Shown here: positions 6,062 to 61,150 of the stretch, in pieces
Layout: each line of letters opens with the position of its first letter
Numbering within the stretch: the first letter of the stretch is position 1
Assembly: GCA_021773795.1 (NCBI GenBank)
Contig: JAJFJT010000024.1
Coordinates: forward strand, 1 to 64,000
DNA length: 64,000 nucleotides
Source: Gammaproteobacteria bacterium
GTDB taxonomy: Bacteria; Pseudomonadota; Gammaproteobacteria; HK1
Reading direction: 5' to 3'
Translations under genes and position numbers: made by a program
The notes under the pieces: model-generated
What the model saw: only the letters and a program-made list of their open reading frames with translations
Databases searched by the model: none
Told to the model about the DNA's origin: nothing

Positions 6062-6685
6062 ATGTTGATTGATACACTCTCCCATATGAATTGGCTTGAC
6101 CTAACGACGGCATCGGGCGCTAGTTTTTTGCTCATATTTGCCGCTGAAATTGGAGACAAAAGTCAGTTGGTGTGCATGGCGCTTGCAGCCAGGTATAGGG
6201 CGTTGCCCGTCATGCTCGGTTCTGCTTTGGCGTTTGTCCTGCTCAATACCCTGGCTGTGGTCTTTGGAACAACTATCGCTAACTGGCTTCCTGAGGTTTA
6301 TGTTTTTTCCGCGGTGGCTATTTTGTTTGCTGTATTCGGGGTGCATGCCTTACGCATAGAAGAAGACGGAGCTGATGTGAAGGCGGCAATACGTAGCAAT
6401 GGCAGTATATTGGTGGGAACCTTCGTGCTGATTACCGTTGCCGAGTTTGGAGATAAAACGCAATTAGCCGTCGTTGCTTTAAGTAGCACCAGCCCCCCGG
6501 TTGCAGTTTGGTTAGGCTCTACTTTGGCCTTAATAACAACATCAGCTCTGGGGGTATGGGCGGGTCGAACGATATTGCAAAGGATGCCGATTACTATTCT
6601 TCATCGGGTCAGCGGCGTTATCTTTATTTCTCTTTCGGTATTTGCAGCCTACAAAACCTATTTGGCGTTTGTAGGGAAACTCTGA
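6062..6685 (+). CDS. mneA: TMEM165/GDT1 (UPF0016) family manganese exporter
   Basis: A 207-residue inner-membrane protein with six predicted membrane segments in two homologous halves. Each half carries the family ion-binding signature E-x-G-D-K-[ST]-Q: EIGDKSQ near residues 29-35 and EFGDKTQ near 130-136. Bacterial relatives (MneA) export Mn2+. The start is ATG 6062, or ATG 6086, which gives the more usual MNWLDL N-terminus. The last codons (GKL-stop) lie inside the left terminal repeat of a MITE-like element that starts at about 6675, so the native C-terminus may have been replaced. Two short overlapping hairpins precede the start (6035-6058). Divergent from the abiE-hsd operon. Confidence 0.85.
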   Translation: MLIDTLSHMNWLDLTTASGASFLLIFAAEIGDKSQLVCMALAARYRALPVMLGSALAFVLLNTLAVVFGTTIANWLPEVYVFSAVAILFAVFGVHALRIEEDGADVKAAIRSNGSILVGTFVLITVAEFGDKTQLAVVALSSTSPPVAVWLGSTLALITTSALGVWAGRTILQRMPITILHRVSGVIFISLSVFAAYKTYLAFVGKL

Positions 6686-6834
6686 TCGATTCGTGGACTC
6701 GTACCTTGCGCGCAAAATGTCCATCTTCATCGTTGCTGCTCTTCGCAATAGAACGACTATTACGCGTGAACAGCGCCTCAAAGCTGAATATTTTGCATCA
6801 CAATCTACTTTGCCCAGAATAAATCAGAGCTTCC
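6675..6834. repeat. MITE-like element, copy 1
   Basis: A 160-bp non-coding element bounded by ggaaactctgat and atcagagcttcc, an imperfect 12-bp terminal inverted repeat. Its reverse complement matches 57510-57670 along the whole length at roughly 85% identity by eye. It fills the gap exactly between the stop codons of the Mn exporter and the pseudouridine synthase gene. Flanking gtag/ttag is compatible with a 4-base YTAR-type target as used by IS5-family transposases, but no parent transposase is visible. Confidence 0.75.
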
Positions 6835-7713
6835 TTAGTTTTGCTGCCACACGCTGTGCTGTATTTCTGCCAGACAATTAGTCGGCAGCAGCGCCTCTTC
6901 CAAGCGGTATAGCCGGGCTTGCCCCGAGATGGGGCATATAAATGACAAGGAGACGGCGGCTAGCGCCAGGTCTTCACTTTGTTCCTTGTGGCCATACAGG
7001 CGATCCCCAATGACGCTGAAACCGGCGTCGGCGAGATGCTTTCTGATCTGATGCTTACGACCGGTTTCCGGATGGATGTCCAGCCAGGAGCGATTTTTAG
7101 TGGTCGAGTATTTGCGTAACCGGATGTGGGTGATGGCCGCTTTGTCCTGCACCGGTTGATTGATGGTGGTGACGGCGGGGTCCTGGGAAAATTGGCCCAT
7201 GACGCAGGCGCGGTAATGCTTTGTTATCTCATGCTGGCGGAACATACGTGACAGGGTGGCGGCCATGGTTTTGCTGTGCGCAATCAATATGAGCCCTGCT
7301 GTAGCGCGGTCCAGGCGGTGTACGGAAAAGGTGGGTCGTTGCGGTTGCAGATGTTGCTCTACCCAGCGCTGAATGGTGCAGTGATCGCCCCATTTTGAAC
7401 CCTGAGAGAGCATGCCTTGGGGTTTGCACCAGATGCTGTATTGACCTTCGTCAGCGATCAATTTGGCCTCTTCCGGGGTGGCTTCCAGAACTTGGGGGTT
7501 GTAGTAAAAATCGAGGACGTCACTGTCGGCCAGTACCTTGCTGGCACGCCGCAGACGCTGGCAGTGTTTTTCGTGAGTCAGCCAGACGGCGCCTTTTTGC
7601 ATCGCTGCCTTAACGCCCTGCCGGGACAAACCGCTGGCTGTTGCCAATAGCGCTACGGCCTTGGCGTTGTCTTCACTGACTTCAATATGGAAATGCTGTG
7701 GTGTTTCACTCAT
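6835..7713 (-). CDS. RluA-family RNA pseudouridine synthase
   Basis: A 292-residue enzyme that isomerises uridine to pseudouridine in rRNA or tRNA. The N-terminus (about 15-75) resembles an S4-type RNA-binding domain (SRQGVKAAMQKGAVWL). The catalytic domain carries the RluA-family motif HRLDRATAGL (around 133-142), whose Asp is the nucleophile, and the late family motif PETGRKHQIRKHL (around 217-229). Which position is modified cannot be told from sequence; the family includes RluA, RluC, RluD and TruC. It converges on the Mn exporter, and its stop codon abuts the MITE-like repeat. Confidence 0.88.
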   Translation of the reverse strand: MSETPQHFHIEVSEDNAKAVALLATASGLSRQGVKAAMQKGAVWLTHEKHCQRLRRASKVLADSDVLDFYYNPQVLEATPEEAKLIADEGQYSIWCKPQGMLSQGSKWGDHCTIQRWVEQHLQPQRPTFSVHRLDRATAGLILIAHSKTMAATLSRMFRQHEITKHYRACVMGQFSQDPAVTTINQPVQDKAAITHIRLRKYSTTKNRSWLDIHPETGRKHQIRKHLADAGFSVIGDRLYGHKEQSEDLALAAVSLSFICPISGQARLYRLEEALLPTNCLAEIQHSVWQQN

Positions 7714-33638: not shown

Positions 33639-33807
33639 TTGTTACGAGTCAGCAGTTGCCTGAAAGTGGCGGACAGGTGACTGTAACTGTGCCCTGGTGG
33701 GACGCCATCCAAGCCAGTGCCCGGAACCCCCACATCTAGACCACCTTTCGGAAGACTACGGCCCGACGATTTTCTGCCTTCAGACTAGCGCGGCCCGATT
33801 AGAGACC

Positions 33808-33829
33808 AGGAATCTGTCGGATTTGGTAG
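33808..33829. repeat. Copy of the ctgtcggattt dispersed repeat
   Basis: aggaatctgtcggatttggt at 33808-33827 matches the arm taggagtctgtcggatttag deduced at 16214-16288. It lies in the 200-base gap between the convergent parA and GGDEF-EAL genes, which holds nothing else recognisable. Confidence 0.5.
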
Positions 33830-33838
33830 GCTGCTTCA

Positions 33839-36022
33839 CTACATTTCGGAACGGCTATTTAGCATCGTACTGAACTCACCGGCCGGCAATGGTTTGCTGA
33901 AATAGTACCCTTGGACCAATTCGCAGCCTGCACCTTTGAGAAAATTGAGTTGGCCCTCAGTTTCTACGCCTTCGGCAATTACCTGCATACCCAGACCGCG
34001 AGCCATCGCAATAATGGTATTAACCAGCACCGCATCCCCTGGATCGTCAACCACGTCCCTTATGAAAGACTGATCTATTTTTAGCACATCGATGGGAAAC
34101 TGTTTGAGATAGCTCAGTGCCGAATAACCAGTGCCAAAATCATCAATGGCAATGCGTACACCCAGTTGGTGTAACTGCTCTAGTTTGGCAAGGACATTCG
34201 CTTCCTCGCGCAACAACAGGCTTTCAGTTATTTCCATTTCCAACAGTTGGGTGGGCAAGCCCGAATCTCTCAGGATTCGTGCCACCTGTTCGACGATATC
34301 TACATGCTGAAACTGTTGTGATGAGAAATTTACCGCGATGCGCAACGGCCGGTCCGGTCCGGTTTGCCATTGCTGTGCCTGCCTGATCGCTGTATCCAAC
34401 ACCCACAGGCCTATCTCATCGATAAGACCGATGCTTTCCGCCAAGTGAATAAACTTGTCCGAGGGTACCAGACCCAGTCGTGGATTCTGCCAGTGTAGTA
34501 ACGCCTCAGCACCCACAATTTTGTTACTGCCGGTTTCCAGTTGCGGCTGGTAACAAAGGAAAAATTCTCCTTTTGCCAATGCCTGACGCAACTGGTTTTC
34601 CATATCCAGGCGTTTGACTGCATGCTCATTCAACTCCTGGATAAAAAAGCGATAGGTATTTCGCCCCGCATGCTTTGCCCGGTACATGGCGGCCTCGGCA
34701 TTACGAATCAGGATGTGAGGATCCTTGCTGTCGGCAAGCAGGTGGGTTATCCCGATACTGGCGGTGATGACAATCACCTGACCCAAGATTTCAAACGGGG
34801 TTGAGAAGGACTCCAGTATTTTCTCGGCAACTACTTGACTACCGGTGACCTCCTCCAGCGCAGGCAGGATAAGCAGAAATTCGTCCCCGCCCAGCCTGGC
34901 TACCGTGTCCAGGTCGCGCACTACATTGCTCAGTCGGCGTGCCGCTTCTATCAGGATTTGATCACCCGCCGGATGTCCCAGGGTGTCGTTGACTTTCTTG
35001 AAGTCATCCAGATCGACCATCATCACCGCCATATCGCGTTTCTGGCGTTGGCTACTGGCTATCGCCTGGGCGAGTCGATCCATCACCAGAATTCGGTTGG
35101 GCAGGCCGGTAATGTCATCGAAGTTGGCCTGGCGCAAGAGGCGTTTCTCATACTCTTTACGCACCGAGATATCTTCCTGGGTGGCCAGATAATGGGTAAT
35201 GGAGCCATCATCTCCCAGGATCGGTGAGATGGTTGCGTAGGCCCAGTACAATTCTCCATCCCTTTTTTTATTCTGCAATTCACCGCGCCATTCCCTGCCT
35301 GTGCTGATGGTCAGCCACAAATTGTCATAGACGTGCGGTGGGGTATTTTCAGACTTCCACAGACTTGGCTTGTGGCCCAGTACCTCTTTCCTGGAGTAGC
35401 CGCTGATCTGCTCAAAGGCGTTATTGACGAATTCGATGTTGCCATGGATATCGGAAATGATGACCGCAGCAGGAGACTGTTCCACTGCCCGCGACAGTTT
35501 GTGCAGGTTTACCTGGCTTTCCTGTAATGCCTCACGTTCCTTTTCCAGTGCGCGTACCTTCTGGTTCAGCTTGTGCTCCAGGCGGTTCGCATGCATCTGT
35601 TCCAGCTCATGATTCTCCCTGTTGGGATGGTCTGGAACGGGAAGTTTGTGCGCACTGTGTTCTTCCAGTACCGCGGCAATGATCTTGAGAAACTCCACCA
35701 TTTCCATGGGTTTGATGATGTAGCGGGATGCCCCCAGAGACAGGGCAAGCTGTTTATCCTTGGCCTCTGTATAGGTGGCGCTATAGAAAATGAAGGGAAT
35801 CTTCCGCAACCGCTCGTCTTCCTTAACCATGCGGCACAGGTCAAAACCGTCCATCTCAGGCATCAGGATGTCCGAAATGATCATGTCCGGGGGTGTGCGT
35901 CGCGCCAGTTCCAGCGCCTGCGCACCGTTGACAGCACTATCTACTGTATAACCCTGGGCTTGCAGGGCGGATTCCAGCAGAACCCTGGAGTTTTCGTCAT
36001 CCTCAGCAATCAGAAATCTCAC
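33839..36022 (-). CDS. Response regulator with PAS, GGDEF and EAL domains
   Basis: A 727-residue c-di-GMP enzyme. The receiver domain (about 1-120) has the acidic pocket EDDE and the phospho-acceptor Asp in ISDILMPEMDG. A coiled-coil linker and a PAS domain (about 178-295; WKSENTPPHVYDNLW) follow. The GGDEF domain (about 305-465) has an intact LGGDEF near residue 377, so diguanylate cyclase activity is possible. The EAL domain (about 480-727) has GAEALLHW (usual EALxRW, here H for R), DDFGTGYSAL and LKIDQSFIRD. The start is GTG, sharing one base with the stop of the preceding receiver gene. Last gene of the sensor-kinase operon. Confidence 0.94.
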   Translation of the reverse strand: MRFLIAEDDENSRVLLESALQAQGYTVDSAVNGAQALELARRTPPDMIISDILMPEMDGFDLCRMVKEDERLRKIPFIFYSATYTEAKDKQLALSLGASRYIIKPMEMVEFLKIIAAVLEEHSAHKLPVPDHPNRENHELEQMHANRLEHKLNQKVRALEKEREALQESQVNLHKLSRAVEQSPAAVIISDIHGNIEFVNNAFEQISGYSRKEVLGHKPSLWKSENTPPHVYDNLWLTISTGREWRGELQNKKRDGELYWAYATISPILGDDGSITHYLATQEDISVRKEYEKRLLRQANFDDITGLPNRILVMDRLAQAIASSQRQKRDMAVMMVDLDDFKKVNDTLGHPAGDQILIEAARRLSNVVRDLDTVARLGGDEFLLILPALEEVTGSQVVAEKILESFSTPFEILGQVIVITASIGITHLLADSKDPHILIRNAEAAMYRAKHAGRNTYRFFIQELNEHAVKRLDMENQLRQALAKGEFFLCYQPQLETGSNKIVGAEALLHWQNPRLGLVPSDKFIHLAESIGLIDEIGLWVLDTAIRQAQQWQTGPDRPLRIAVNFSSQQFQHVDIVEQVARILRDSGLPTQLLEMEITESLLLREEANVLAKLEQLHQLGVRIAIDDFGTGYSALSYLKQFPIDVLKIDQSFIRDVVDDPGDAVLVNTIIAMARGLGMQVIAEGVETEGQLNFLKGAGCELVQGYYFSKPLPAGEFSTMLNSRSEM

Positions 36023-36387
36023 TATTCATCTCCAATAACCTGTTTGATCTGGCGGATAACCCGTTTTGGATCGATGGGTTTTTCGATATAGCCCGTACAG
36101 CCAGCAGCCAGCAGTTTTTCCCGGTCGCCAGCCATCGCGTAAGAGGTCATGGCTATAATCGGGGTGGTCGTATCACCTGAGCCACGTACCTGGCGCAGCA
36201 CCTCTTTCCCATTCATATCCGGTAGCTGGATATCGAGAATTATGAAGTCAGGGTGCTGGGCCACTGCTATCTCAATACCCATCCGTCCACTATCGGCCCG
36301 CAGAGTCTGGTAGCCGCTACTCTCCAGAATAAAGGTGATCAGTTCCATATTATTCTCGTTGTCTTCCACCACCAGGGCTGTTTTCAT
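36022..36387 (-). CDS. Single-domain response regulator (CheY/DivK-like)
   Basis: A 121-residue receiver domain with no output domain. The acidic pair is in VVEDNENN, the phospho-acceptor Asp in IILDIQLPDMNG (about Asp53), Thr/Ser in AMTSYAM and Lys in YIEKPIDP. It lies between the large sensor kinase (13 bases upstream) and the REC-GGDEF-EAL gene (1-base overlap), so it probably relays or competes for phosphate in the same circuit. Confidence 0.92.
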   Translation of the reverse strand: MKTALVVEDNENNMELITFILESSGYQTLRADSGRMGIEIAVAQHPDFIILDIQLPDMNGKEVLRQVRGSGDTTTPIIAMTSYAMAGDREKLLAAGCTGYIEKPIDPKRVIRQIKQVIGDE

Positions 36388-36400
36388 TTAATATTCTCCA

Positions 36401-39400
36401 TTAAACATTGTTAACAGAAAGTATTTTCGCCACCCTGAGACAAAAGGTACTTCCTTTTCCAACCTGGCTTTCCACCGATACTGCTCCCTGCAATAATTCG
36501 GTGGCTATCTTTTTGGTGAGGTACAGTCCAAGGCCTGTACCACCGGCTTTTACGCTCATATAGGATTGCAGTCGCTCAAAGGGCCGAAAGAGCTTTTTCA
36601 GTGCCACCTCAGGGATGCCGATACCGTTATCAGCGATGGTAATTTCCACTTCTCCATCCGTGGAACGTGCGCTTATCTTGATCAGTCCTTCATCCGAGTA
36701 TTTAACTGCATTACTCAGAAAGTTGAGAATACATTGCAGCAGCCGCTTTCTGTCGGTCACCAGGCTCATTCCCTGGGGAACATCTACCGTCAAGGTCAAG
36801 CCTTTACCCTCAAGTTGGGTCTGCACGGTTCCGACCGCCTCTTCTATAAGCTCATTCAGGATCAGGGGCTCCGGGAATACATCGATTCTTTGTGCTTCTA
36901 TCTTCGAGATATCGATAACATCGTTGATCAGGTTTAGCAGATGATGTGCGGCGCCATTTACTCTGCCCAACTGATCTTTTTGCCGCTCATTAAGATCCCC
37001 AGACATGCCTTCCAGAATGATCCCGGTAAAACCGATGATGGAGTTTAGGGGTGTGCGCAGTTCGTGGGACATGGAGGCGATGAACATGGACTTGAGCTGA
37101 TCGAGTTTCTTCAGTTCAAGATTGGCGGCCTCGGTGATCTCGTTGGCCGCATGTAGTTTCTCCTCGGCCCGTTTCCGTTCGCTGATATCTTCGTAGGTAC
37201 TGACAAATCCACCGCCGGGTATTGGGCCTCCAAGAATTTCAATGACATTTCCATCGGGCCGTTGGCGTTCAAGATGATGCGTTTCAAATTCCATTGCCCG
37301 TCCGAGCAGCTGATCCAGGGTGATTCCAGGGTCGCTGTGGCGGAATTCATCATTGTCGAGATCAAAACGCATGAAATCGGCAAAGCCCTTGCCCACCGTC
37401 AACATCTCGGGTGGATAGCCCCGGATTTCCGTCAATTTCCGGTTCCAGGCCAGAAGTCTAAGGTCTTTATCGAATGCAACCAGACCTTGGGAGATACTGT
37501 TCAGAACCGTGGTGAGTACGTTGGTCTGCTGCTCTAGAATTTGTTGGTTTTCCTTGAGATTTACCTCCACTCGTTTGCGCCAGGCTACCTCCCGATGAAG
37601 GCGACGGTTCCAGATCAAGATAATAGCCAGGATGGTGCCGGCCACCAGAAGTACAATTCCTGTTGCTAGGAATACCAGCTGCCAGTCAGTTTTTGTTTCC
37701 ACCCGAAAATTCAACCAGCTTTGGGTAACAGCCCGTTTTTCAGTTTGAGGGATGGTATCGATCAACTTGTCCAGTATCCCGACCAGCTCATTCCAATCCT
37801 TGCGGATGCCGAAGGCCAGATCAAAGCTGTAGGGTGTGGGGGCTGCTACCCGGAGATCTTCCAGGCCCAGTTTCTGAATGGCGTAGGTGATGGCTGGAAT
37901 ATTATCGATATAAGCATCGACCTCTCTCTCGGACAGGGCTTTGAGTGCCTGATGGATATTCTCAAAGCGGACAGGCTGCAACTCGGGATGGTTAGCAGCC
38001 ACTAACTCCTCGGTGATGTATCCCTTGATCAAGGCGACTCGTTTACCCGCCAGGCCCTCAATGCCACTGATCAGCGGGGCATTCTTGTGGGTCAGAATGA
38101 CCATCGGAAAGCTGAGATAGGGTTGGGTAAAATTCAGGTGGCGGGCCCGCTCCTCGCTTCTCATCACCGCTGGCAGCACATCGATCTCTCCGTTGCGTGC
38201 TTGCTCCATGACCTGTGACCAGTTCAGGCCCTTGACTGGCTGCATATCGATGCCGAGGCGCTCATTGAACAGTTTCACGAAGTCGAGGACCATGCCGTGA
38301 TAGACCCCGGCGGAGTCAAGGAACTCAAATGGTGGCCAAGAGGAATCAATGCCAATTCGCATCTTCCTGTGTTTAGCCAGCCAGGTCTTTTCTTTTGCAG
38401 TGAATAGAGGCTCGACAATGGGCGTTATGTTTTCGGAAATCACCCATTTCCTCAGGATGGCCCTCATTTCCTTCTCGGTCAGGCTGTCCAGTGCCTTTTG
38501 CAGAATGTCACGCAGGATGGGCCAGTCTTTACGCACGCCGATGGCGTTGATGGAAGCGGTTTCCCTGATCTTGTTGTGTTGCACAAGATTGCCAATCAAT
38601 TCACGCTCGATAAGGAACATGGCTACAGCCCGGTTGCCAACATAGGCATCGGCATCTCCCTTGGAGACAGCATCCAGGGCATCGCTGGTCGACTCATATT
38701 CCTGGACCTGTATTCCGGGATATTTGCTGCCCAAGACATTGACTATGAAAAAGCCACGTTCCACGGCAACTATCCGGTCTTTGAGCTCTTTGAGCCCCGT
38801 ATAATAGGGGCCGTCCTTACGGGCGAATATTACGTGCGGGACAGTGACGTAGGGTTTGGTGAAGTGAAAATATTGTTCCCTCTCGGGGCGCGGGGTGATA
38901 CCGAAAAGTACATCAAGGCGTTTTTCCTGGACATCGGTATAGATTTTTTTCCAGGTTCCCGGAACAATCTTCAAGCTATTGTTGAGGCGTTCATTAAGCG
39001 CCGCGATAAAACTTGCCCCGATCCCGCGAGCTTTCCCTTCGCTATCTACATAATCCATCGGTGGCCAGGCATTCATGGTTCCGACCCGTATCTCTCGATG
39101 CTTGGCTAACCAGGCCTTTTCTTTGGCCGTGAGTTTGATAGCTCGATCAGATTCGTATGTGATCCATTTCGATAGAATCTTTCGCCTTTCCTGTTGGCTT
39201 ATATCATCCATTCCTTGTTGCAGGATATCGCGCAGAATGGGCCAGTCTTTTCGTGTTCCGATGGCAAGCACTGAACCCGGTTTTCTCAATCTTCCGTGCG
39301 CCTTGAGATTGAGCATCACCTCCTCTTCGGCAAGGTACAGTGCCACACCACGGTTGCCGGCATAGGCGTCGGCCTCACCGCGTGCTACCGCACCAAGTGC

Positions 39401-40006
39401 GTGGGAAGTATCACGGTACTGCCTGATTCGGACCTGTGGGTAGTGTTTTTCAAAGTACTTCACATTTCCAAAGCCGCGTTCAAGTGCCAGTATTTTGCCC
39501 TTGAGATCGTCCTCATTACGTAGATAGGGAGTGTCTTTGGGTGCGACGATTACATGCGGTACGTTGAGGTAGGGAGTGGTGAAGTTAAAGTGTTCTTCCC
39601 GGGCAGGCTTGGGCGTAATATCCATCAGGGCATCGAGATGCTTGCCTTTAACCTGTTCGTAGAGATCGCTCCATGGGGCGGGCACGATCTTCAACAAACC
39701 ACCCAGACGTTGATTGAGCGCGGCGATGTAGTCACGGCCTATGCCGCTAGGATTACCTCGCTTATCGAGAAAGTTGAACGGTGGCCAGGCATCCATGACA
39801 CCTATACGGATCTCTGGATGTTTCTCGATCCACTGCAGTTCTTCCTTGGTCAGTGCTATTTTTGTCGGTGCTGCTTTGCCGACAACAGTATCTAACGTAC
39901 TGACAGCAGTGGATATGACAGGGATGGGAGCACCGGTGTCCACGCTCCAGCTTGGCTGGAAGGCGGTGAGTAAAAACAAACAGAAGATTTGCCGGAATTG
40001 CCTCAT
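36401..40006 (-). CDS. Sensor histidine kinase with three periplasmic solute-binding domains
   Basis: A 1201-residue BvgS/EvgS-like sensor. A signal peptide (1 to about 21) precedes three tandem family-3 solute-binding domains (about 50-285, 290-525, 535-765). Each starts with a similar block, such as ELQWIEKHPEIRIGVMDAWP and AKEKAWLAKHREIRVGTMNA. A membrane segment (about 778-800) and a PAS domain (about 825-945) lead to the HisKA domain with ASMSHELRTPLN (His near 978). The ATPase domain has N-box, DNGIGIP and GGTGLGLYL. Unlike BvgS it has no attached receiver or Hpt domain; separate receivers follow in the operon. Such domains usually sense amino acids or related small molecules; the ligand is unknown. 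Confidence 0.93.
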   Translation of the reverse strand: MRQFRQIFCLFLLTAFQPSWSVDTGAPIPVISTAVSTLDTVVGKAAPTKIALTKEELQWIEKHPEIRIGVMDAWPPFNFLDKRGNPSGIGRDYIAALNQRLGGLLKIVPAPWSDLYEQVKGKHLDALMDITPKPAREEHFNFTTPYLNVPHVIVAPKDTPYLRNEDDLKGKILALERGFGNVKYFEKHYPQVRIRQYRDTSHALGAVARGEADAYAGNRGVALYLAEEEVMLNLKAHGRLRKPGSVLAIGTRKDWPILRDILQQGMDDISQQERRKILSKWITYESDRAIKLTAKEKAWLAKHREIRVGTMNAWPPMDYVDSEGKARGIGASFIAALNERLNNSLKIVPGTWKKIYTDVQEKRLDVLFGITPRPEREQYFHFTKPYVTVPHVIFARKDGPYYTGLKELKDRIVAVERGFFIVNVLGSKYPGIQVQEYESTSDALDAVSKGDADAYVGNRAVAMFLIERELIGNLVQHNKIRETASINAIGVRKDWPILRDILQKALDSLTEKEMRAILRKWVISENITPIVEPLFTAKEKTWLAKHRKMRIGIDSSWPPFEFLDSAGVYHGMVLDFVKLFNERLGIDMQPVKGLNWSQVMEQARNGEIDVLPAVMRSEERARHLNFTQPYLSFPMVILTHKNAPLISGIEGLAGKRVALIKGYITEELVAANHPELQPVRFENIHQALKALSEREVDAYIDNIPAITYAIQKLGLEDLRVAAPTPYSFDLAFGIRKDWNELVGILDKLIDTIPQTEKRAVTQSWLNFRVETKTDWQLVFLATGIVLLVAGTILAIILIWNRRLHREVAWRKRVEVNLKENQQILEQQTNVLTTVLNSISQGLVAFDKDLRLLAWNRKLTEIRGYPPEMLTVGKGFADFMRFDLDNDEFRHSDPGITLDQLLGRAMEFETHHLERQRPDGNVIEILGGPIPGGGFVSTYEDISERKRAEEKLHAANEITEAANLELKKLDQLKSMFIASMSHELRTPLNSIIGFTGIILEGMSGDLNERQKDQLGRVNGAAHHLLNLINDVIDISKIEAQRIDVFPEPLILNELIEEAVGTVQTQLEGKGLTLTVDVPQGMSLVTDRKRLLQCILNFLSNAVKYSDEGLIKISARSTDGEVEITIADNGIGIPEVALKKLFRPFERLQSYMSVKAGGTGLGLYLTKKIATELLQGAVSVESQVGKGSTFCLRVAKILSVNNV

Positions 40007-40266
40007 TACGGGGTAAACCTACAGCGTAGGAATAATTGTAAGTTGTTCGTATTCTGTTGAGGCAAACGGAACGAACACGATGATAACTGCTTGTATCCTG
40101 CTCTTCATAACCCTTCCTGGACTTAGACTGTATCCACTTGGTGGAACCATATATCAGAGCATATTCTGGAGTGTTTAGCTTGCCATATTGCTGGCCATGG
40201 GTCATGCCGCTTGAGCGTCGGTGGGAGCATTTATCCACAACCAGCTGTTTTTCTACCTAAAACTGC

Positions 40267-40309
40267 TTGGTGGGCCGTGCAGGGTTCGAACCTGTGACTA
40301 CCTGATTAA
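40267..40309 (-). other. Partial tRNA-Lys 3' half: far attachment-site repeat of a small island
   Basis: These 43 bases copy 44035-44077, from the CCA end through the T arm to the anticodon loop of tRNA-Lys, with 2 mismatches (40295 and 40300). The rest of the tRNA is missing, so it is not a gene. Such a copy is what integration of a tyrosine-recombinase element into a tRNA 3' end leaves behind. Confidence 0.8.
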
Positions 40310-40367
40310 GCGTCGTGCATATCAACAACAAACTGCTCCGGATGGTCGTGCTTTCCGGTACCAACAT

Positions 40368-40904
40368 TTAAACAAACTTTTTGAATGCCTCATCAATGGG
40401 TGTTTGCGCCAGATGGTTGGTATAGTTGCTAATGATCTTCTGAGAGACACCGAGCACAATTTCAAGCAACTGCCTATTTTCATAGCCGGCCTCAAAAAAT
40501 GCTGTTTGCTCGTCGCTGCTCAATTTCCCACGATTGCGAACCAGCGCCAACGTTGTTAAGTGCAGGAGCTGAAGTTTGTTTGTGGGCAACTCGGTGTGAC
40601 TACGCAGTGCATCTGTAATGGCACTGTCGACCTTCATCATGTGGGCGATAGCTGTGTGTGCGGGGATACAGTAGTGACATTGGTGCTCGATGTTGATGGT
40701 CTGCCAGACTACGGTTAACTCTTCTGTGTTAAAACTGGCTTTCTGGAACAGCTGATGCAGTTCTTGATAAGCCTCGAGCACTGCCGGTGCCTCGGCCAAT
40801 ACGGCATGCAAATTCGGAATCACGCCAAACTCGTTAAGTGACTTGTCCAGCAATGGCTGGGCGTCGGCGGGGGCGGTTTCTTTGGTGTGCAACTGGAATT
40901 TCAT
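40368..40904 (-). CDS. AhpD/carboxymuconolactone decarboxylase family protein
   Basis: A 178-residue all-helical protein of the alkylhydroperoxidase-like fold. The redox motif is C76-H-Y-C79 followed by H83 (CHYCIPAHT), matching the E...C-x-x-C-x-x-x-H arrangement of AhpD-type enzymes. It is probably a thiol peroxidase or a related stress protein; the substrate is unknown. It lies just inside the tRNA-Lys-flanked island, with no partner gene adjacent. Confidence 0.85.
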   Translation of the reverse strand: MKFQLHTKETAPADAQPLLDKSLNEFGVIPNLHAVLAEAPAVLEAYQELHQLFQKASFNTEELTVVWQTINIEHQCHYCIPAHTAIAHMMKVDSAITDALRSHTELPTNKLQLLHLTTLALVRNRGKLSSDEQTAFFEAGYENRQLLEIVLGVSQKIISNYTNHLAQTPIDEAFKKFV

Positions 40905-41323
40905 GGTATTGATTCCCGAACTTTTAATGGATAGTAGGCCCCGACAAACTCAGATGGCGCTGCCAGTAATCCTTTAACTTGTTAGTTATGCGGAGAGACC
41001 GGCAATCGGGGCCACACTGATAAAAAGCACATTTTTTGGGCTCTTATTTGTCAGTACGCCGGAAGTACGACATTTTTGGATGTGAGGCGTTCACTAATCC
41101 GGAAAGCGGTGATTGGGCGCTATACGTAGAACTGATGGGTGGCCCTACGGCTTCGCGGAGTGATCAGCCCATAACGTTATTGACGGCATGGAGTGACAAG
41201 CCAGGCCGTTACGGTGAGCCAGTGGGAGAACAGATATTCGGGGTAGCTTGTGGGCCGCTGGTGGTTCCAACCCGCTGGCACGAGTGGACGATAGAGCGCA
41301 AATCAAATTCTCAGGAGGAGGAT
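40905..41323. other. 419-base region without a recognised gene
   Basis: Contains an open frame from 41036 that runs on into the IS3 copy and so is not a normal gene. Its first about 95 codons (SYLSVRRKYDIFGCEAF...) match nothing I recognise and could be a remnant cut by the insertion sequence. The right end of the IS3 copy should lie near 41300-41323. Confidence 0.4.
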
Positions 41324-42223
41324 TCATCCTCCCCTTGGAGTTCTGTCAATAACTGTACGGTTGGGGGAATCAGCAGCCGCCTCCTCGAATATCAGTGGTG
41401 CCATCTGCCCAGTATGGGAATGACGTCGCTGACGATTATAAAATACTTCAATGTACTCAAAGATGCTGGCCTTTGCCTCAGCGCGATAGTGATAGTCTTC
41501 GTGGTGCACCAGCTCCGTTTTCAGCGTGTGGAAGAAGCTCTCTGCTACCGCATTGTCCCAGCAGTTACCTTTGCGACTCATCGAACACTCGATGCCATTT
41601 GCGGCAAGTATCGCTCGATAATCTGCTGCCGCATACTGGCTGCCCTGGTCTGAGTGCAACAGCAGCGGGCTCCGCAATTTCCGGCGCATCAGCGCCATCT
41701 TCAAAGCATCTGTGACCAACGTAGCCTTCATGCGCTTATCCATGGACCAGCCGATCACCGCTCGGGAATACAGATCGATAATCACCGCCAGATACAACCA
41801 ACCGGCTCGGGTGGGTATGAACGCGATGTCCGATACCCAGCGCTCATTCGGTTGTGCCGCCGTGAACTGCTGCTTCAATAGGTTTGGGGCCGGCACCGTC
41901 TTGCGTGAGTCCGTGGTCACCCGGAACTTGCGTACCATCTTCGGCACAATGGCTGCGCGCCGCATTAACAGCGCGACCGTGTTCTCTCCAATCCGTTCGC
42001 CTGACTCCAGTAGAGCCTTTCGAATACGCGGCGCACCGTAGGTGTCTCGGCTGGCTTGGTGGAAGTATCGGATCTTCTCAGTCAGTTCCTGGTGACGCTG
42101 TGCACGCGGGCTCTCAGGCCGATCTCGCCAGTCGTAATAGCCACTCCGAGACACACTCATCGCCCGACACATCATTCGAACCGGGTATTGATGACGATGC
42201 CGATGGATCACTGCGTATCTCAT
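41324..42223 (-). CDS. IS3-family transposase OrfB
   Basis: A 299-residue DDE transposase (rve integrase core). An N-terminal helix-turn-helix-like part (CRAMSVSRSGYYDW) is followed by the catalytic triad D132 (RWVSDIAFIP), D192 (HSDQGSQY) and E228 (CWDNAVAESFF), with the D-x(35)-E spacing of IS3 elements. This frame is intact. It would normally be made by frameshifting from orfA, and the A6G slippery run is present upstream. orfA is broken (next entry), so the copy is probably immobile. Confidence 0.92.
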   Translation of the reverse strand: MRYAVIHRHRHQYPVRMMCRAMSVSRSGYYDWRDRPESPRAQRHQELTEKIRYFHQASRDTYGAPRIRKALLESGERIGENTVALLMRRAAIVPKMVRKFRVTTDSRKTVPAPNLLKQQFTAAQPNERWVSDIAFIPTRAGWLYLAVIIDLYSRAVIGWSMDKRMKATLVTDALKMALMRRKLRSPLLLHSDQGSQYAAADYRAILAANGIECSMSRKGNCWDNAVAESFFHTLKTELVHHEDYHYRAEAKASIFEYIEVFYNRQRRHSHTGQMAPLIFEEAAADSPNRTVIDRTPRGG

Positions 42224-42342
42224 GGCTGGTTCTTCGCGAAGAACACCGCCGCTTTTTTAGAAACTCATTCTCTTCCTGGCTAGCGGCCAGCGCCTTCTTT
42301 CAGCGCCGAATTTCTGCGTCCTTATCTCTTTCCTTAAATCCA
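42224..42342 (-). pseudogene. Truncated, frameshifted IS3 OrfA remnant
   Basis: Read on the minus strand it gives RDKDAEIRR, then a one-base deletion, then KKALAASQEENEFLKK and, after a shift at the A6G run, AAVFFAKNQP. That is the usual C-terminal end of IS3 OrfA. The 5' two thirds of orfA and the left IS end are missing. The remnant abuts the stop codon of the Fic gene. Confidence 0.75.
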
Positions 42343-43494
42343 TTACGTACTTGCAAAGTTTCTGTTAAATATTAGAAAGTATTCCCTAAATAGAAATGTT
42401 CTGTTTCTCCGGTTTCCTGTCAATTCATGTAGAACGTCATGTTTAACGAAATCGGTTACCAATGCTGATGCTGTATTGGTTTTTAAGCTTAGCAAATTAG
42501 ATACCGATTTAATGTTTATTATTGGCGACTGATATAGGTGCATCATTAAGTTTTGAGCATTTGCCTGCCTGCGTGTACTGAAGTGAGGCAATACTACTCG
42601 TTCCAAGTTCTCTTTTAATGCAATTATGTCTTTGAATACTTGGATGGAATTCTCTGCCGTTTCATGTACACCATATAAAAAGAACACCAACCATTCTTTC
42701 ATCCTATTTGATTCGCGAACGGCCATTAATCGATCTACATATTCTGTTTTGTTGCGTTCAAAATAATCAGACAAATATAAGGCAGGTTTGTGTAATAGAC
42801 CATGGCTGGCTAAATATAGAGATATCATTAAGCGTCCAAGCCTACCATTGCCGTCTGAAAACGGATGGATTGTTTCGAATTGATAATGGGCAATGGCGAT
42901 TTTTATTAGATGAGGTACATGCAACTCATTGTTATGTAGGAATTTCTCTAAATCGCTCATTAACTCATTAACTTCATTTTGATGTGGAGGAATAAATACA
43001 GCATGTTTTAGACTGACGCCAATCCAATTTTGGCTATTTCTAAACTCTCCTGGCTGCCTTTTTTTGCCACGCACTCCTTGCATTAAAATTCTATGTGTGT
43101 CGCGAAGTAAGCGATTAGAAAGAGGAAAAGTTTGTAACCGTGTGATAGCTGTATTTATAGCGCTTATATAATTTTGTACTGCTTCCCAGTCATCTTTCTT
43201 TTCAGATTCAATGCTATTTTCATCTAGCAGTGCTTCTTCCATGTTAGTCCTAGTGCCTTCTATACGGCTGGACTGAGTGGCTTCTTTTGTTATATGCATC
43301 CGTATAAAAAAATCCACGTCGGGGACTAGCTGAGAAAAGGCATTTAATTCTCCTAATGTTCTATCTGTGTCACTAAGTAATTTCAGGATTTCGCCATCCG
43401 CTATTTCCCAATCTCGATTAATGTTGATTGGTGAAAAGCTTTTGTACTTATATTGTTGTTTGTATATGCCGGCTGAAAAATCGAGGATATTCAT
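42343..43494 (-). CDS. Fic family protein (AMP-transferase type, self-inhibited class)
   Basis: A 383-residue protein. The catalytic loop HPFSDGNGRLGR (210-221) matches the full Fic motif HPFx[DE]GNGRxxR, so adenylylation of a target is expected. The inhibitory helix motif [ST]xxxE[GN] is present in the N-terminal part as SSRIEG (75-80), which marks class II Fic proteins that hold themselves inactive. An N-terminal Fic_N-like domain (about 1-110) and a C-terminal winged-helix-like region (about 315-370) flank it. Codon use is clearly more AT-rich than the neighbours, a sign of transfer. Its 3' end abuts IS3 debris. Confidence 0.92.
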   Translation of the reverse strand: MNILDFSAGIYKQQYKYKSFSPININRDWEIADGEILKLLSDTDRTLGELNAFSQLVPDVDFFIRMHITKEATQSSRIEGTRTNMEEALLDENSIESEKKDDWEAVQNYISAINTAITRLQTFPLSNRLLRDTHRILMQGVRGKKRQPGEFRNSQNWIGVSLKHAVFIPPHQNEVNELMSDLEKFLHNNELHVPHLIKIAIAHYQFETIHPFSDGNGRLGRLMISLYLASHGLLHKPALYLSDYFERNKTEYVDRLMAVRESNRMKEWLVFFLYGVHETAENSIQVFKDIIALKENLERVVLPHFSTRRQANAQNLMMHLYQSPIINIKSVSNLLSLKTNTASALVTDFVKHDVLHELTGNRRNRTFLFREYFLIFNRNFAST

Positions 43495-43517
43495 GTCTGA
43501 ATCAGATTAGCGCCATG

Positions 43518-43620
43518 TTTTTGATATAAGGAATAGCTTATGTCAGAAATATAGCTATGTTTTAATTATATGTTAAAATAATGCTGGGTTTTCGATATAT
43601 GGGGTTTTTAATGTCAGAAA
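43518..43620. promoter_or_regulatory. Duplicated 32-bp sites upstream of fic
   Basis: Two 32-base stretches, 43518-43549 and 43589-43620, share tttt-n-gatata-n-gg and end in atgtcagaaa. They are 71 bases apart in an AT-rich, gene-free stretch just upstream of the fic start. Candidate binding sites for a regulator, possibly Fic's own winged-helix region. Confidence 0.4.
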
Positions 43621-43783
43621 GTGAAATGATAGCGGAAGGCCCTAATTAAAATTGGGCGACAGATATGCTGCGCTGTAACACGACATCTCAGCGGTATAGC
43701 CTTCCCGGCAACCTGTAAGCCCCTGATCTATAGGTATCTGTGACGTGCAAACGCAAGGTGTAACCTGGGGAGGAAACAAGGCC

Positions 43784-43960
43784 ATGGTACCCCAGAAGCA
43801 ACCTCGTCTACTTGACAAGGTTTCGCTCATGCCGCCGATCATATTGGAGTTTACGGACGGCTCAGATCTTGCGTCTCGCATCAAGCCTCCTAGCTACATG
43901 ATTACTAGAGGCACCCCCAATATGGAGGTTACTGCGCTGTGGAAGTTAATGCTGATATGA
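43784..43960 (+). pseudogene. Possible 5' remnant of an integron/phage-type tyrosine integrase
   Basis: An ATG with a good GAGGAAAC ribosome site opens a 59-codon frame beginning MVPQKQPRLLDKV. The block Q-x-x-P-[RK]-L-L-D-[QK]-V is how many integron-type integrases begin, normally followed by R-x-x-I-R-x-x-H-Y-S. Here the match stops after V, and the remaining codons (SLMPPIILEFTDG...) look unrelated. The match is short, so this is a suggestion only. Two gtctacat repeats (43971-43978, 43982-43989) follow before the tRNA. Confidence 0.3.
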
Positions 43961-44035
43961 GCGCCTAACTGTCTACATAACGTCTACATGGAGAGTTCTG
44001 GCATCAGGCGAATGTTCGTAACTATTTGATATTGT

Positions 44036-44111
44036 TGGTGGGCCGTGCAGGGTTCGAACCTGCGACCACCTGATTAAAAGTCAGATGCTCTACCAACTGA
44101 GCTAACGGCCC
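44036..44111 (-). tRNA. tRNA-Lys (anticodon TTT)
   Basis: The minus strand starts GGGCCGTTAGCTCAGTTGG, has the anticodon stem-loop around CTTTTAA, the T arm GGTTCGAACC and an encoded CCA end (76 bases). Its 3' half (44035-44077) is repeated at 40267-40309, marking it as an integration site. Confidence 0.97.
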
Positions 44112-57509: not shown

Positions 57510-57670
57510 GGAAAGCTCTGATTTATTCTGAACGAAGTAGATTGTGATTCAAAATGTTCAGCTTTGAGGCACTGCTCGCACGTAATAGTCGTTCTATTGC
57601 GAAGAGCAGCAACGATAAAGATGGATGTTTTGGGCGCAAGGTGCGAGTTCACGAATAGATCAGAGCTTCC
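57510..57670. repeat. MITE-like element, copy 2
   Basis: A 161-bp element from ggaaagctctgat to atcagagcttcc, in opposite orientation to the copy at 6675-6834 and similar along its full length. Right flank ctag fits a YTAR-type target. It lies directly before the cassette region. Confidence 0.75.
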
Positions 57671-57876
57671 CTAGGCTAAAAAGCTGAATAAACAGTACCT
57701 TATTACCGCAAAAAGACAGCCTCCAGGATATGGGCTAGGCTATCTGTTAACTCGCCAACGGTTTCACGGAATGAACCGCCCATGATATCCATCCTTCATC
57801 GTCCGTTCATGACGCCCGACCCGGCTCATGAAATGCCATACACAATCAACAATTATCAGGCTTGGCTATGTCAATC

Positions 57877-58082
57877 GGATTATGTGGAAAGATGGCGACA
57901 TAATACGGGAGAGACCAAAATACCGATCACCGAAAAGTACAGTGGGTTGGGTTATAACCTGTTGATAAATAAAAGGAAGTATTGTCATGGAGAAAATCAT
58001 GAATCCTTCGGGCGTATGCACTAGTCCGTTTATTGCCGAATCGGTATTAATCATTAAACGAGCCAACTTTCCACATAAATCC
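57877..58082. repeat. Inverted-repeat element at the left edge of the cassette array
   Basis: ggattatgtggaaag (57877-57891) and ctttccacataaatcc (58067-58082) are inverted copies differing by one inserted base. The left end also contains attatgt/acataat (57879-57885, 57898-57904) and tatgtc/gacata (57868-57873, 57897-57902), a nested palindrome resembling a recombinase core site. The 80-codon frame at 57782-58024 crosses it and has no recognisable content. Confidence 0.5.
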
Positions 58083-58083
58083 T

Positions 58084-58090
58084 GTTAAGT
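58084..58090 (+). other. Left core site of the cassette array
   Basis: gttaagt matches the cassette core consensus GTTRRRY exactly and lies 11 bases before the first cassette gene. It would be the insertion point of the first cassette (an attI or the end of a lost earlier cassette). Confidence 0.5.
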
Positions 58091-58100
58091 TCTTAGAGTT

Positions 58101-58460
58101 ATGAATAAATCTCGGATAAAATTTAGTCATTCTGCTTTCATGATCATCGGCATTCTTGTCTGGGGTGCTGTGACTCTCAGTTTATTGGACGTATTTGGAT
58201 TAAAGAACGTAAAATCAGAAGATCTGACAACCCTTGAGAATGTCATCGTTTTCGTAGTCATGGTGGCGGGTTTTCTTTCTGTTTTATTGCTCTCAAACTT
58301 AATTAGCTACATTATTCTCGCAAGAGTTTTGAAAGCGCAGCGAACTGATTTGGAACACGTTATCGCAGAACATGCGAAATTGGATTCAAGGGATAACAAT
58401 CCGACAATACAAAGGTTTTATGTGTGGTGTCTTGATATTGCATATAGGGATAAAACTTAA
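58101..58460 (+). CDS. Cassette A: small membrane protein of unknown function
   Basis: A 119-residue protein with two membrane helices (about 12-34 and 46-74) and a cytosolic, charged C-terminal tail (KAQRTDLEHVIAEHAKLDSRD). No family recognised. Base composition is much more AT-rich than the surrounding core genes. It starts 11 bases after a GTTAAGT core and stops inside the next attC-like site, the tight packing expected of an integron gene cassette. Confidence 0.65.
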   Translation: MNKSRIKFSHSAFMIIGILVWGAVTLSLLDVFGLKNVKSEDLTTLENVIVFVVMVAGFLSVLLLSNLISYIILARVLKAQRTDLEHVIAEHAKLDSRDNNPTIQRFYVWCLDIAYRDKT

Positions 58461-58567
58461 CAAATTTGTGAACTCGGACAAATTTAAAGCGCGGCTTTTT
58501 GTGGTGGCTGCGCCACTTTATCACAAAAATCCACACTTTAAATTTGCCGGTTACAAAGGCGTTAGAG
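58455..58567 (+). other. attC-like site 1
   Basis: The left core acttaac (58455-58461, RYYYAAC) and right core gttagag (58561-58567) enclose a long imperfect palindrome: caaatttaaag near the left pairs with ctttaaatttg near the right. 113 bases. It follows the cassette A gene, whose stop overlaps the left core. Confidence 0.75.
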
Positions 58568-58580
58568 CGCAATCAATATT

Positions 58581-59207
58581 ATGGACGAATCAGAACTAGC
58601 ATTAAAAACAGCCGAAACTGCACTGAGCAAATCAAGAGCAGAGCTGTATAGCGACCTTGTTAAAATCGGCATACCCTCTCTCATTGCAATCGCTGGTATT
58701 GTGAGCACATATCTTTTGACGAAAGCCAGTCATGCAAAAGACCTCGTAATAGAAAATCTTCGTGATTCACACAACACAAAAAATGAAATTAATGAACGAA
58801 CCGGAGAACTGATTAAAGAAATCACTACAGATATATCAAAACTGAACAAAACCATGTTGCTATATTCAAATGGCCTTCATGCAAAAATCACAATGGACAG
58901 GGATCGTTTATTGTTCCCTGAAGAAAACAAAAAGGAACTATCAAATAAATATCATGATTTCGTAGAAATGCTCCACGATATTTTTTCAACAGAAGCGAAA
59001 GTAATGTTACTTGGCAGAGAAAACATCAATGAAAACTTTTTCAATTACCAAATCGAGCTAACTAGATTATCAACAAACTTAAATCCATTTGTAGGCCCTG
59101 ACAAGATTGATGAGCTTGATCAAAGGCTGTTCCGGACACGGGACTTGCATAAAGCGCTAATTCAATCTCTAAGCACAGTATTCTTACTTGATGAACAAGT
59201 TGACTAA
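58581..59207 (+). CDS. Cassette B: membrane-anchored coiled-coil protein of unknown function
   Basis: A 208-residue protein. A charged helix (1 to about 25) precedes a single membrane segment (about 29-48, IGIPSLIAIAGIVSTYLLTK), then a long charged helical body with coiled-coil character (about 55-205). No catalytic motif recognised. AT-rich. It starts 19 bases after core site 1 and is followed after 14 bases by attC-like site 2. Confidence 0.65.
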   Translation: MDESELALKTAETALSKSRAELYSDLVKIGIPSLIAIAGIVSTYLLTKASHAKDLVIENLRDSHNTKNEINERTGELIKEITTDISKLNKTMLLYSNGLHAKITMDRDRLLFPEENKKELSNKYHDFVEMLHDIFSTEAKVMLLGRENINENFFNYQIELTRLSTNLNPFVGPDKIDELDQRLFRTRDLHKALIQSLSTVFLLDEQVD

Positions 59208-59221
59208 CATCGCGATCAAGC

Positions 59222-59294
59222 GCTCTAACAAGGGCATGCAACGGACTGCCAAACCGCTACGCGCTTTGTCAGCCGCTGATGCCGGGCGTTATGT
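59222..59294 (+). other. attC-like site 2
   Basis: Left core gctctaac (59222-59229), right core gttatgt (59288-59294), 73 bases. The inner sequence forms an imperfect hairpin (agcggctgac/gtcagccgct type pairing around the centre), more GC-rich than the flanking genes, as usual for attC. Confidence 0.8.
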
Positions 59295-59307
59295 GTACTA
59301 GTGCAAT

Positions 59308-59607
59308 ATGCAACAACGTGCTGATATCTACGTCCAGTTTCTAAATGCACAGGGAGCTGCTGTGCTTTGGATATGTGCTGCTTTTGTGCCGTTCTTTCTT
59401 GTGCCGCCGAGCGAGGATGATATTGCAGTGGCAAATTTCGTAGCTCTGGTTGTAGTTTGTCTTGGCGTATTCGTGGCATATCGAGATCTTTCAGGCCTTA
59501 AGCGCTCTGGTAAGCTTTCTCTATCAGATATTGTAGTTATGGCGGTTGTGCCGGTCGTGTTATTCGCAGGATCAACCACGTATGTGTTGTGGAGTACGTA
59601 CACATAA
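59308..59607 (+). CDS. Cassette C: three-helix membrane protein of unknown function
   Basis: A 99-residue hydrophobic protein with three predicted membrane segments (about 12-32, 39-57, 73-93) and short loops (VPPSEDDIAVANF; RDLSGLKRSGKLSLSD). No family recognised. It starts 20 bases after core site 2. Its stop codon lies inside the left core of attC-like site 3. Confidence 0.65.
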   Translation: MQQRADIYVQFLNAQGAAVLWICAAFVPFFLVPPSEDDIAVANFVALVVVCLGVFVAYRDLSGLKRSGKLSLSDIVVMAVVPVVLFAGSTTYVLWSTYT

Positions 59608-59697
59608 CCAGCATAGGCAAGGGACGCTTGACCCGTCAGCCGTTTTGCTTCCGCAAAACGCCAGCCGCGTCAAGCGCCCCTGCTATGGGCGTTATAC
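59602..59697 (+). other. attC-like site 3
   Basis: Left core acataac (59602-59608), right core gttatac (59691-59697), 96 bases. The interior has a strong stem: gacgcttgac pairs with gtcaagcg, and cgttttgc pairs with gcaaaacg around a short loop. Confidence 0.85.
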
Positions 59698-59710
59698 CTA
59701 AGAGAAAGAA

Positions 59711-60124
59711 ATGGATGTACTCGAAGAAAGTGACGAACTTAACGAAGTGTATCGCTTGTACGGGATTGCTGCGCACAATTGTAGCAACATTGAATATCGA
59801 ATTGCGCACCTACTGCTAGGTCCAAAGTGGGCTGCTACTAAAGAGCTGGATGCTGAGAAGGTAACTAAAATAGCTGATGCACTATATTCAAAACCCTTGG
59901 GTGCGCTTCTCAAGGAGTACAAGCAGCATTATGAATTCTCTGAACAAACTATAAAGGCAATGGATACTATATTAGATAAAAGGAACTATCTGATTCATAG
60001 GTTTTTTGGGGCGTATGGAAAAAGAATGCACAACAAGGAAGTACCAAGAGAAATGATAAAAGAACTAACCGATATAATTGGCATGTTTCAAGCGGCATCT
60101 CATTCGCTTGATGAGGGTATCTAG
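59711..60124 (+). CDS. Cassette D: HEPN-like small protein
   Basis: A 137-residue, all-helical soluble protein. LDKRNYLIHRFFG (about 91-103) contains R-N-x-x-x-H, the R-[polar]-x(3-5)-H signature of HEPN domains, many of which are metal-independent RNases in toxin-antitoxin and defence systems. Preceding helices are amphipathic, as in HEPN folds. A GAGAAAGA ribosome site precedes the ATG. No second gene in the cassette could be an antitoxin. Assigning activity is inference; the motif is visible. Confidence 0.6.
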   Translation: MDVLEESDELNEVYRLYGIAAHNCSNIEYRIAHLLLGPKWAATKELDAEKVTKIADALYSKPLGALLKEYKQHYEFSEQTIKAMDTILDKRNYLIHRFFGAYGKRMHNKEVPREMIKELTDIIGMFQAASHSLDEGI

Positions 60125-60130
60125 AAAAAT

Positions 60131-60213
60131 GTATAACAAGGCAATTGCAGCAGATCCACAAAAGCGCCGCTATCGCTTTGCTTTTGCGGTCGGCTGAATT
60201 GCGGCGTTATGTG
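60131..60213 (+). other. attC-like site 4
   Basis: Left core gtataac (60131-60137), right core gttatgt (60206-60212), about 82 bases. Inner pairs caattgcagc/gctgaattg and aaaagc/gctttt give the imperfect palindrome. Confidence 0.85.
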
Positions 60214-60231
60214 CAATAAGGAGAATGCCAA

Positions 60232-60693
60232 ATGGTAAACATAGGAAGCAATAAATTTGAAAATGTCGCATTTCCGTTGGCATTTGAAAATAGATATTTC
60301 ATGCTGGAGCCTTCTGCAGGTGAGGACGTATGGACAGTCTTTACTGTGCAGGATGGAAAGCCTGTTATCGAGATATTAAAAAACAATCCACAAGAAAATA
60401 GTATTTCTAAGTCGGAAACTAATCCTACCGGAATAATTACTGTATCTGATCCAAAAACAGGAGCATTTCTCTATAAGCTTCGCCCAGGAAATAAAAATAG
60501 CTCTATCTTTGGGCGCATCAATGGAGAGGAAACAGAAATAAAGATAACTGATAGAGAGATACTAATTGGCACAAATAAATTCCAAAGCAACCTCGTATCA
60601 GGCTTTGCTGTCGGTATTATTGTTGACAGTAATGGTGGTATTGGAATGGGTGCGGGTTTACCCCCTGAGTTGCAGAGTTTATTTCGCACATAA
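60232..60693 (+). CDS. Cassette E: soluble beta-rich protein of unknown function
   Basis: A 153-residue protein with no membrane segment or signal. It shows alternating strand-like stretches (ENVAFPLAFENRYFML, DVWTVFTVQDGKPVIEIL, GIITVSDPKTGAFLYKL, EIKITDREILIGTNKF) and a glycine-rich end (FAVGIIVDSNGGIGMGAG). No family recognised. An excellent AAGGAG site lies 8 bases before the ATG. Its stop overlaps the left core of attC-like site 5. Confidence 0.68.
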   Translation: MVNIGSNKFENVAFPLAFENRYFMLEPSAGEDVWTVFTVQDGKPVIEILKNNPQENSISKSETNPTGIITVSDPKTGAFLYKLRPGNKNSSIFGRINGEETEIKITDREILIGTNKFQSNLVSGFAVGIIVDSNGGIGMGAGLPPELQSLFRT

Positions 60694-60758
60694 CCAGGCG
60701 CTTCACCCGACCAAAAACCGCGATGCGGTTTTGGTCGGGTGAGCTTGGTCGTTATGTG
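60688..60758 (+). other. attC-like site 5
   Basis: Left core acataac (60688-60694), right core gttatgt (60751-60757). The interior is a near-perfect hairpin: tcacccgaccaaaaaccgc (60702-60720) pairs with gcggttttggtcgggtga (60725-60742). Confidence 0.9.
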
Positions 60759-60793
60759 GCAAGTAAGATCGTGATAATGGAGCATGAACTGCG

Positions 60794-61150
60794 ATGATAT
60801 TCAGAATATTGATTGAAATCGCTGTAGTTCTGCTTTTACTCGGTATTGGGGGGCTTTACGTAAAGGATTCCGCGACAGTTAAGCAAGCGCTCCTTGTAGA
60901 GAAGTTTTTCAAAGACTACTGCCGACAGCACAATAACTATCCTGAACTAGAAGCTGTGGAGAAGAAATTTCCTGGATTGTATCCCGACCGAGAATGGTAT
61001 TACTGGCCCAACGAGAGACGAACCGTTGCATCCTTTCAATACCCCATGACGTTGCCAATGACTTCAGCTCCTGGCCGCTCAAAGGTCTCGGAATTCATTC
61101 CCATCATCTATTCTTACGTCGTCCATCATCCCTGCCAAGATATATTTTGA
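60794..61150 (+). CDS. Cassette F: membrane-anchored extracytoplasmic protein of unknown function
   Basis: A 118-residue protein. One N-terminal membrane helix (about 4-24, LIEIAVVLLLLGIGGLYV) and a soluble part with two cysteines (near 44 and 114) and many aromatics (YPDREWYYWPNERR). No family recognised. Starts 42 bases after core site 5. Followed by a weaker attC-like end. Confidence 0.62.
   Translation: MIFRILIEIAVVLLLLGIGGLYVKDSATVKQALLVEKFFKDYCRQHNNYPELEAVEKKFPGLYPDREWYYWPNERRTVASFQYPMTLPMTSAPGRSKVSEFIPIIYSYVVHHPCQDIF

Follow-up and report, generated by a model that had tools for sequence, protein, structure and literature searches.

The question raised by this locus is how a partial copy of a tRNA gene came to lie close to the intact gene. 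In the 64-kb stretch of DNA analyzed here (the window, from genome G000), tRNA-Lys(UUU) is the sole tRNA gene, and its 3' half occurs a second time. The first-pass annotation had read the two sequences as the att pair of a trapped integrative-element remnant. This reading is supported by the polarity of a motif beside the tRNA, which matches that of an island in a genome of the same family (G010), and by the absence of the copy from relatives. We think it probable that 40267-44077 is the leftover of a tRNA-Lys integrative element, with 44035-44077 as attL and 40267-40309 as attR, that entered before the split of the three species compared below (Table 1).

The claim that 40267-40309 repeats the tRNA 3' half with two mismatches was confirmed. 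The copy is identical to the 3' half of tRNA-Lys(UUU), including the CCA, at 41 of 43 bases, far above the best ungapped matches in shuffled windows (about 24-27/43), and the extended direct repeat (40267-40314 and 44035-44082) is 92% identical over 48 nt (44/48). Both copies are in the same orientation, with a start-to-start spacing of 3768 bp, and no third copy of the tRNA-Lys 3' half was found in the window. The 40267 copy begins at the CCA end and ends within the anticodon loop; one of its two mismatches opens the first base pair of the T stem, as would be expected if no selection acts on the copy. Island ends are known to be marked by a tRNA gene and its displaced fragment (Islander, PMC4383910), and the arrangement of a tRNA-integrated island is found here: an intact tRNA, a 3' fragment displaced from it in direct orientation, and the element between them on the 3' side of the gene. 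Searches for a donor of the partial copy together with its flank returned 0 matches in viral contigs and the self match only in 369 genomes of the class.

Table 1. Features of the tRNA-Lys locus in window coordinates, and the putative integrase site of the G010 island
Feature	Position	Strand	Basis
Proposed attR core, displaced and decayed tRNA-Lys 3' half	40267..40309	-	41/43 repeat; no attP motif within 60 nt
AhpD-like/peroxidase-related protein, 178 aa	40368..40904	-	weak NCBIfam matches; homologues
IS3-family copy	41324..42345	-	NCBIfam transpos_IS3, 352 bits; translation
Fic protein, 383 aa, SoFic-like AMPylase candidate	42343..43494	-	Pfam Fic and Fic_N; PADLOC SoFic
Non-coding inner end	43495..43928	.	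43636-43787 resembles intergenic stretch on another contig
Proposed attL arm common to two congeners	43929..44035	-	local alignments, z 10-19; BLAST
Putative integrase arm-type motif ATCAAATAGTTACGA, 6 nt past CCA	44016..44030	-	15.2 bits, viral attP matrix
Proposed attL core, tRNA 3' half, anticodon loop to CCA	44035..44077	-	direct repeat with 40267-40309, 41/43
tRNA-Lys(UUU), target gene	44036..44111	-	ARAGORN; Rfam tRNA, 76.5 bits
Putative integrase site at G010 attL: ATCAGTGACTTAC			

Between the att cores lies a 3.77-kb mosaic of a SoFic-like Fic gene, an IS3 copy with a truncated orfA and an AhpD-like gene, and no phage genes were recognized in this interior. The first-pass annotation had described the same contents, an AT-rich Fic gene, an IS3 remnant and an AhpD-like gene, and all three hold, the AhpD family scores being weak. 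The Fic gene has a GC content of 37%, compared to 55% for the window. Its product, in which the motifs HPFSDGNGRLGR and SSRIEG can be read, matches the PADLOC SoFic model with 389 bits over 365 residues and the NCBIfam SoFic equivalog with 177 bits, below the 550-bit cut-off of the latter. Judged from its sequence, the gene appears to encode a full-length SoFic-type class II Fic protein with catalytic and inhibitory motifs; among the 369 class genomes, its nearest relative comes from outside the family and shares 80% identity. Action as an anti-phage toxin has been reported for SoFic, a class 2 Fic (PMC12249575), and the gene is a candidate single-gene anti-phage defense of the SoFic type. In the IS3 copy, orfB is open (41324-42223) and orfA is present only as a fragment of ~120 nt with stops; a plasmid search returned mostly short IS3 pieces of low identity. 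The closest homologues of the AhpD-like protein are 60-67% identical and scattered across several phyla. Within the non-coding inner end, 43636-43787 resembles G000:C4:40355-40506, an intergenic stretch following an mscS-like gene (72% similarity). We would refine the first-pass reading in that the 3.8 kb need not all be original cargo.

No match to the integrase domain PF00589 was found on the whole contig, in agreement with the first-pass claim that the element has no working integrase. The five PF00589 integrases of the genome are all on other contigs, where a search of the 1.5 kb around their integrase-domain matches revealed no tRNA gene. Queries with two family integrases likewise produced no convincing integrase remnant inside the 3.77 kb. 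An integron-integrase start was suspected at 43782 (MVPQKQPRLLDKV); this is a 20-residue piece with no Pfam match, and the assignment is not claimed. Islander requires a tyrosine integrase inside an active island, and none lies in this interior; activity is not part of our proposal, which concerns a remnant.

The locus was compared with those of two congeners, G001 and G002. Element-free relatives that also carry the partial tRNA copy, which the first-pass annotation had named as evidence against its reading, were looked for, and the copy is absent from both congeners. The empty-site comparison that it suggested came out in part: the congeners lack the copy, yet they keep the proposed attL stub (~67 bp shared in G001 and ~107 bp in G002) and so would not be true empty sites. 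The flank of the 40267 copy resembles neither congener's sequence. The left flank, a histidine kinase module, has no counterpart in G001 or G002, and no relative among the 369 class genomes has the sequence left of 40267 flanking an intact tRNA-Lys on its downstream side.

In the window, asmA, CHAD and ParA-like genes (to 33640) are followed by a 6.2-kb GGDEF-EAL/response-regulator/histidine-kinase block, the partial tRNA, the AhpD-like gene, IS3, Fic and tRNA-Lys. G001 has an AsmA-like gene, ~67 bp and tRNA-Lys. Two G002 contigs that end at the locus overlap by 39 identical bases, which allows the order asmA, CHAD, ParA-like gene, unknown gene and tRNA-Lys to be read across them. Because G000 and G001 are the closer pair by identity of the aspS-side DNA (88% against 84%), yet CHAD and ParA are common to G000 and G002, the compact G001 locus is probably a deletion. 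G002 has the IS3 3' tail near tRNA-Lys as well (38/42, same orientation). As G001 and G002 contain related tails at other places too, this is weak evidence of shared ancestry. The signaling genes themselves (33839-40006) encode a GGDEF-EAL regulator, a response regulator and a histidine kinase with three solute-binding domains; the DNA of this block has no counterpart in either congener.

The stretch adjoining the tRNA is common to three species, as native sequence would be, which counts against an att pair: in such a pair, the tRNA-adjacent sequence should be the element's and the native flank should lie beyond the fragment. Taken by itself, this seemed to refute the att pair. The explanation that we rank second holds that the tRNA-adjacent sequence is native, and that the partial tRNA is a ready-made att site within a 10.3-kb foreign block (33641-43928) that came in by another route, with the ParA-like gene on one side and the tRNA on the other, so that the pair bounds no element. 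Homology between G000 and its congeners does continue through the tRNA into the flank, and the whole block lacks a G002 counterpart at the locus except for the 42-bp IS3 tail. No target-site duplication was found at the block's edges. We nevertheless regard this explanation as unlikely, as it would require a tRNA-Lys att relic to have landed by chance in the same orientation as tRNA-Lys and 3.7 kb away, and as the shared flank bears an attP-type motif, positioned as in viral attP and in the attL of G010; it is the motif evidence that tips the balance to the att pair.

The motif, ATCAAnnACTTACG, lies in the stretch common to the three species, six bases past the CCA end. On a scoring matrix derived from 12 distinct viral attP-type sequences, the flank of the intact tRNA-Lys reaches 15.2 bits here, 15.7 in G001, 10.8 in G002 and 14.4 at the G010 attL, while scores are -0.6 beside the 40267 copy, -0.5 beside the G010 attR and -4.0 beside the tRNA-Lys(CUU) of this genome. 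Position 44016-44030 is the top-scoring motif site of the window on both strands. We assign the attL and attR polarity on the basis that the attP-type motif adjoins the intact tRNA and not the partial copy, as in G010.

Viral sequences were searched with the pattern CACGGCCCACCA-N(2-12)-TCA-N(3-6)-TTAC, using the same pattern with the motif part reversed as a control. The pattern was found in 25 contigs and the reversed control in 2, neither of them at a tRNA end. In 17 of the 25 contigs the pattern lies at a true tRNA-Lys 3' end, and 14 of these 17 lack a complete tRNA-Lys, as attP should. Of the 17, 12 had integrase matches in the examined 3 kb downstream; L229 and L230, both among these 12, do contain a complete tRNA-Lys. 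Three more viral contigs with a UUU-type half carry looser versions of the motif. Among 85 tRNA genes of other loci examined, the strict motif was found at nine, eight of them tRNA-Lys. From these data we infer that the motif is an integrase arm-type site. A literature search for the motif string together with integrases gave no relevant paper among the matches listed. Because G012 and G015 carry the motif beside tRNA-Lys with no integrase recognized in 2-4 kb (ORFs read), the link between the motif and a visible element is not strict, and a native role at tRNA-Lys is possible given these two genomes.

Within the family, several tRNA-Lys genes have a similar motif a few bases past the CCA. In G010, tRNA-Lys and a fragment bound an intact-looking 30.8-kb island with a matching attR (L196/L197, C45:27589-58404); an integrase with Arm-DNA-bind_3, Phage_int_M and Phage_integrase (PF00589) domains directly follows the tRNA, and the motif is present at attL and absent at attR. 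In G009, too, an integrase directly follows tRNA-Lys. Fragments of the same tRNA-Lys 3' half recur in G008, G010 and G012, and the orphan halves in G008 and G012 (L198:1804-1850, L199:14766-14818 and L200:2585-2637) suggest that tRNA-Lys is a repeated integration target in the family. In G003, an OLD-like ATPase gene and then a UvrD-like helicase gene lie directly downstream of tRNA-Lys (L204:4414-7001), an arrangement that is Gabija-like by eye.

Tandem accretion would involve at least two elements at tRNA-Lys, with the 40267 copy as an internal junction and the histidine kinase/response-regulator block (33641-40266) in an older element whose far end has been deleted. The absence of this block from both congeners, and of any match to the kinase at E<=1e-200 in the 369 class genomes, would fit, as would a weak motif-like site (9.7 bits) 218 nt past the 40267 copy; however, the window has nine motif sites of 10 bits or more, so that sites near 9.7 bits arise by chance, and it holds no third tRNA fragment. 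We consider this history improbable. In a non-integrative origin, a cleaved tRNA might, for instance, have been reverse-transcribed and its 3' half copied in this way into the chromosome. Such an origin would account for a copy that extends almost exactly from the anticodon loop to the CCA, but is very hard to credit given that phage attP cores have the same extent and that integration explains the orientation and position without new machinery.

Elsewhere in the window, a dispersed intergenic repeat of ~165 bp (6669-6838 and 57513-57673), with copies roughly 80-92% alike and dozens of them across the G000 and G002 genomes, folds as one long hairpin (z -4.3) and has no Rfam match; it looks like a MITE. 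The GC content of 58001-61000 is 38-45%, against about 52-61% around it, and this is possibly another acquired segment. Type I restriction-modification specificity and methyltransferase genes are found at 246-3886.

Returning to the integrative element, the repeat, the motif polarity, the stub shared with the congeners and the lack of an integrase are observed directly, and the order of events and the choice of interior genes that came with the element are reconstructed from them as follows. A prophage, satellite or ICE would have entered by recombination, catalyzed by its tyrosine integrase, between attP and the 3' half of tRNA-Lys(UUU). The tRNA would thereby have been rebuilt with the element's own 3' half, forming attL with the arm-type site next to it, while the 3' half that had belonged to the tRNA was moved to the opposite end as attR (40267-40309) and could decay there freely. 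This insertion would predate the separation of G000, G001 and G002; an age close to the species split would fit the two substitutions in the 43-bp copy, which are too few for dating. Later loss of the integrase and of most of the element would have left the rest unable to excise, and the gap may have gathered or retained the Fic gene, the IS3 copy and the AhpD-like gene. The sister species would have deleted more, keeping the attL stub alone. As a refinement of the first-pass reading, the element would thus be older than the known species of the genus, and the congeners would be deletion derivatives with an attL stub.

The locus offers a clean case of an integrative element reduced to its ends, although genomic fossils of this kind are ordinary. 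It also indicates that species comparison alone can mislead, as seemingly empty sisters may still hold an attL stub. Whether such stubs form a general fossil record, with the arm-type end tending to persist for the life of a genus after the element is lost, is a speculative suggestion that we hold to be doubtful. If it is true, ATCAAnnACTTACG past the CCA would mark past integrations that have left no integrase, attR or cargo, as in G001, G002, G012 and G015. If the motif holds, scans of tRNA flanks would reveal old integrations missed by island finders that need an integrase or a fragment.

Among the closest known systems, the 30.8-kb island of G010 shares the target gene, the tRNA half and the motif polarity at attL and attR but retains its integrase and matching att cores. 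TRNA islands found by Islander (PMC4383910) similarly have a regenerated tRNA, a displaced direct 3' fragment and an island of >2 kb on the 3' side of the tRNA; the remnant described here differs in lacking an integrase, in its non-identical att sites and in an interior of a few unrelated genes. In the KplE1 prophage at argW, attL has arm-type sites in the interval from the tRNA 3' end to the integrase gene, and attL regions span 80-170 nt in KplE1 and related tRNA prophages (PMC2951348). KplE1 uses another tRNA and integrase, and binding has been established there by experiment, while here it is predicted. Grounded (cryptic) prophages (PMC6379469) are trapped in a comparable way, through integrase loss and att decay, and gather insertions and deletions; they are defined by recognizable phage genes, whereas none was recognized here. 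With no integrase and one decayed att site, the remnant is a grounded element in the sense of that work.
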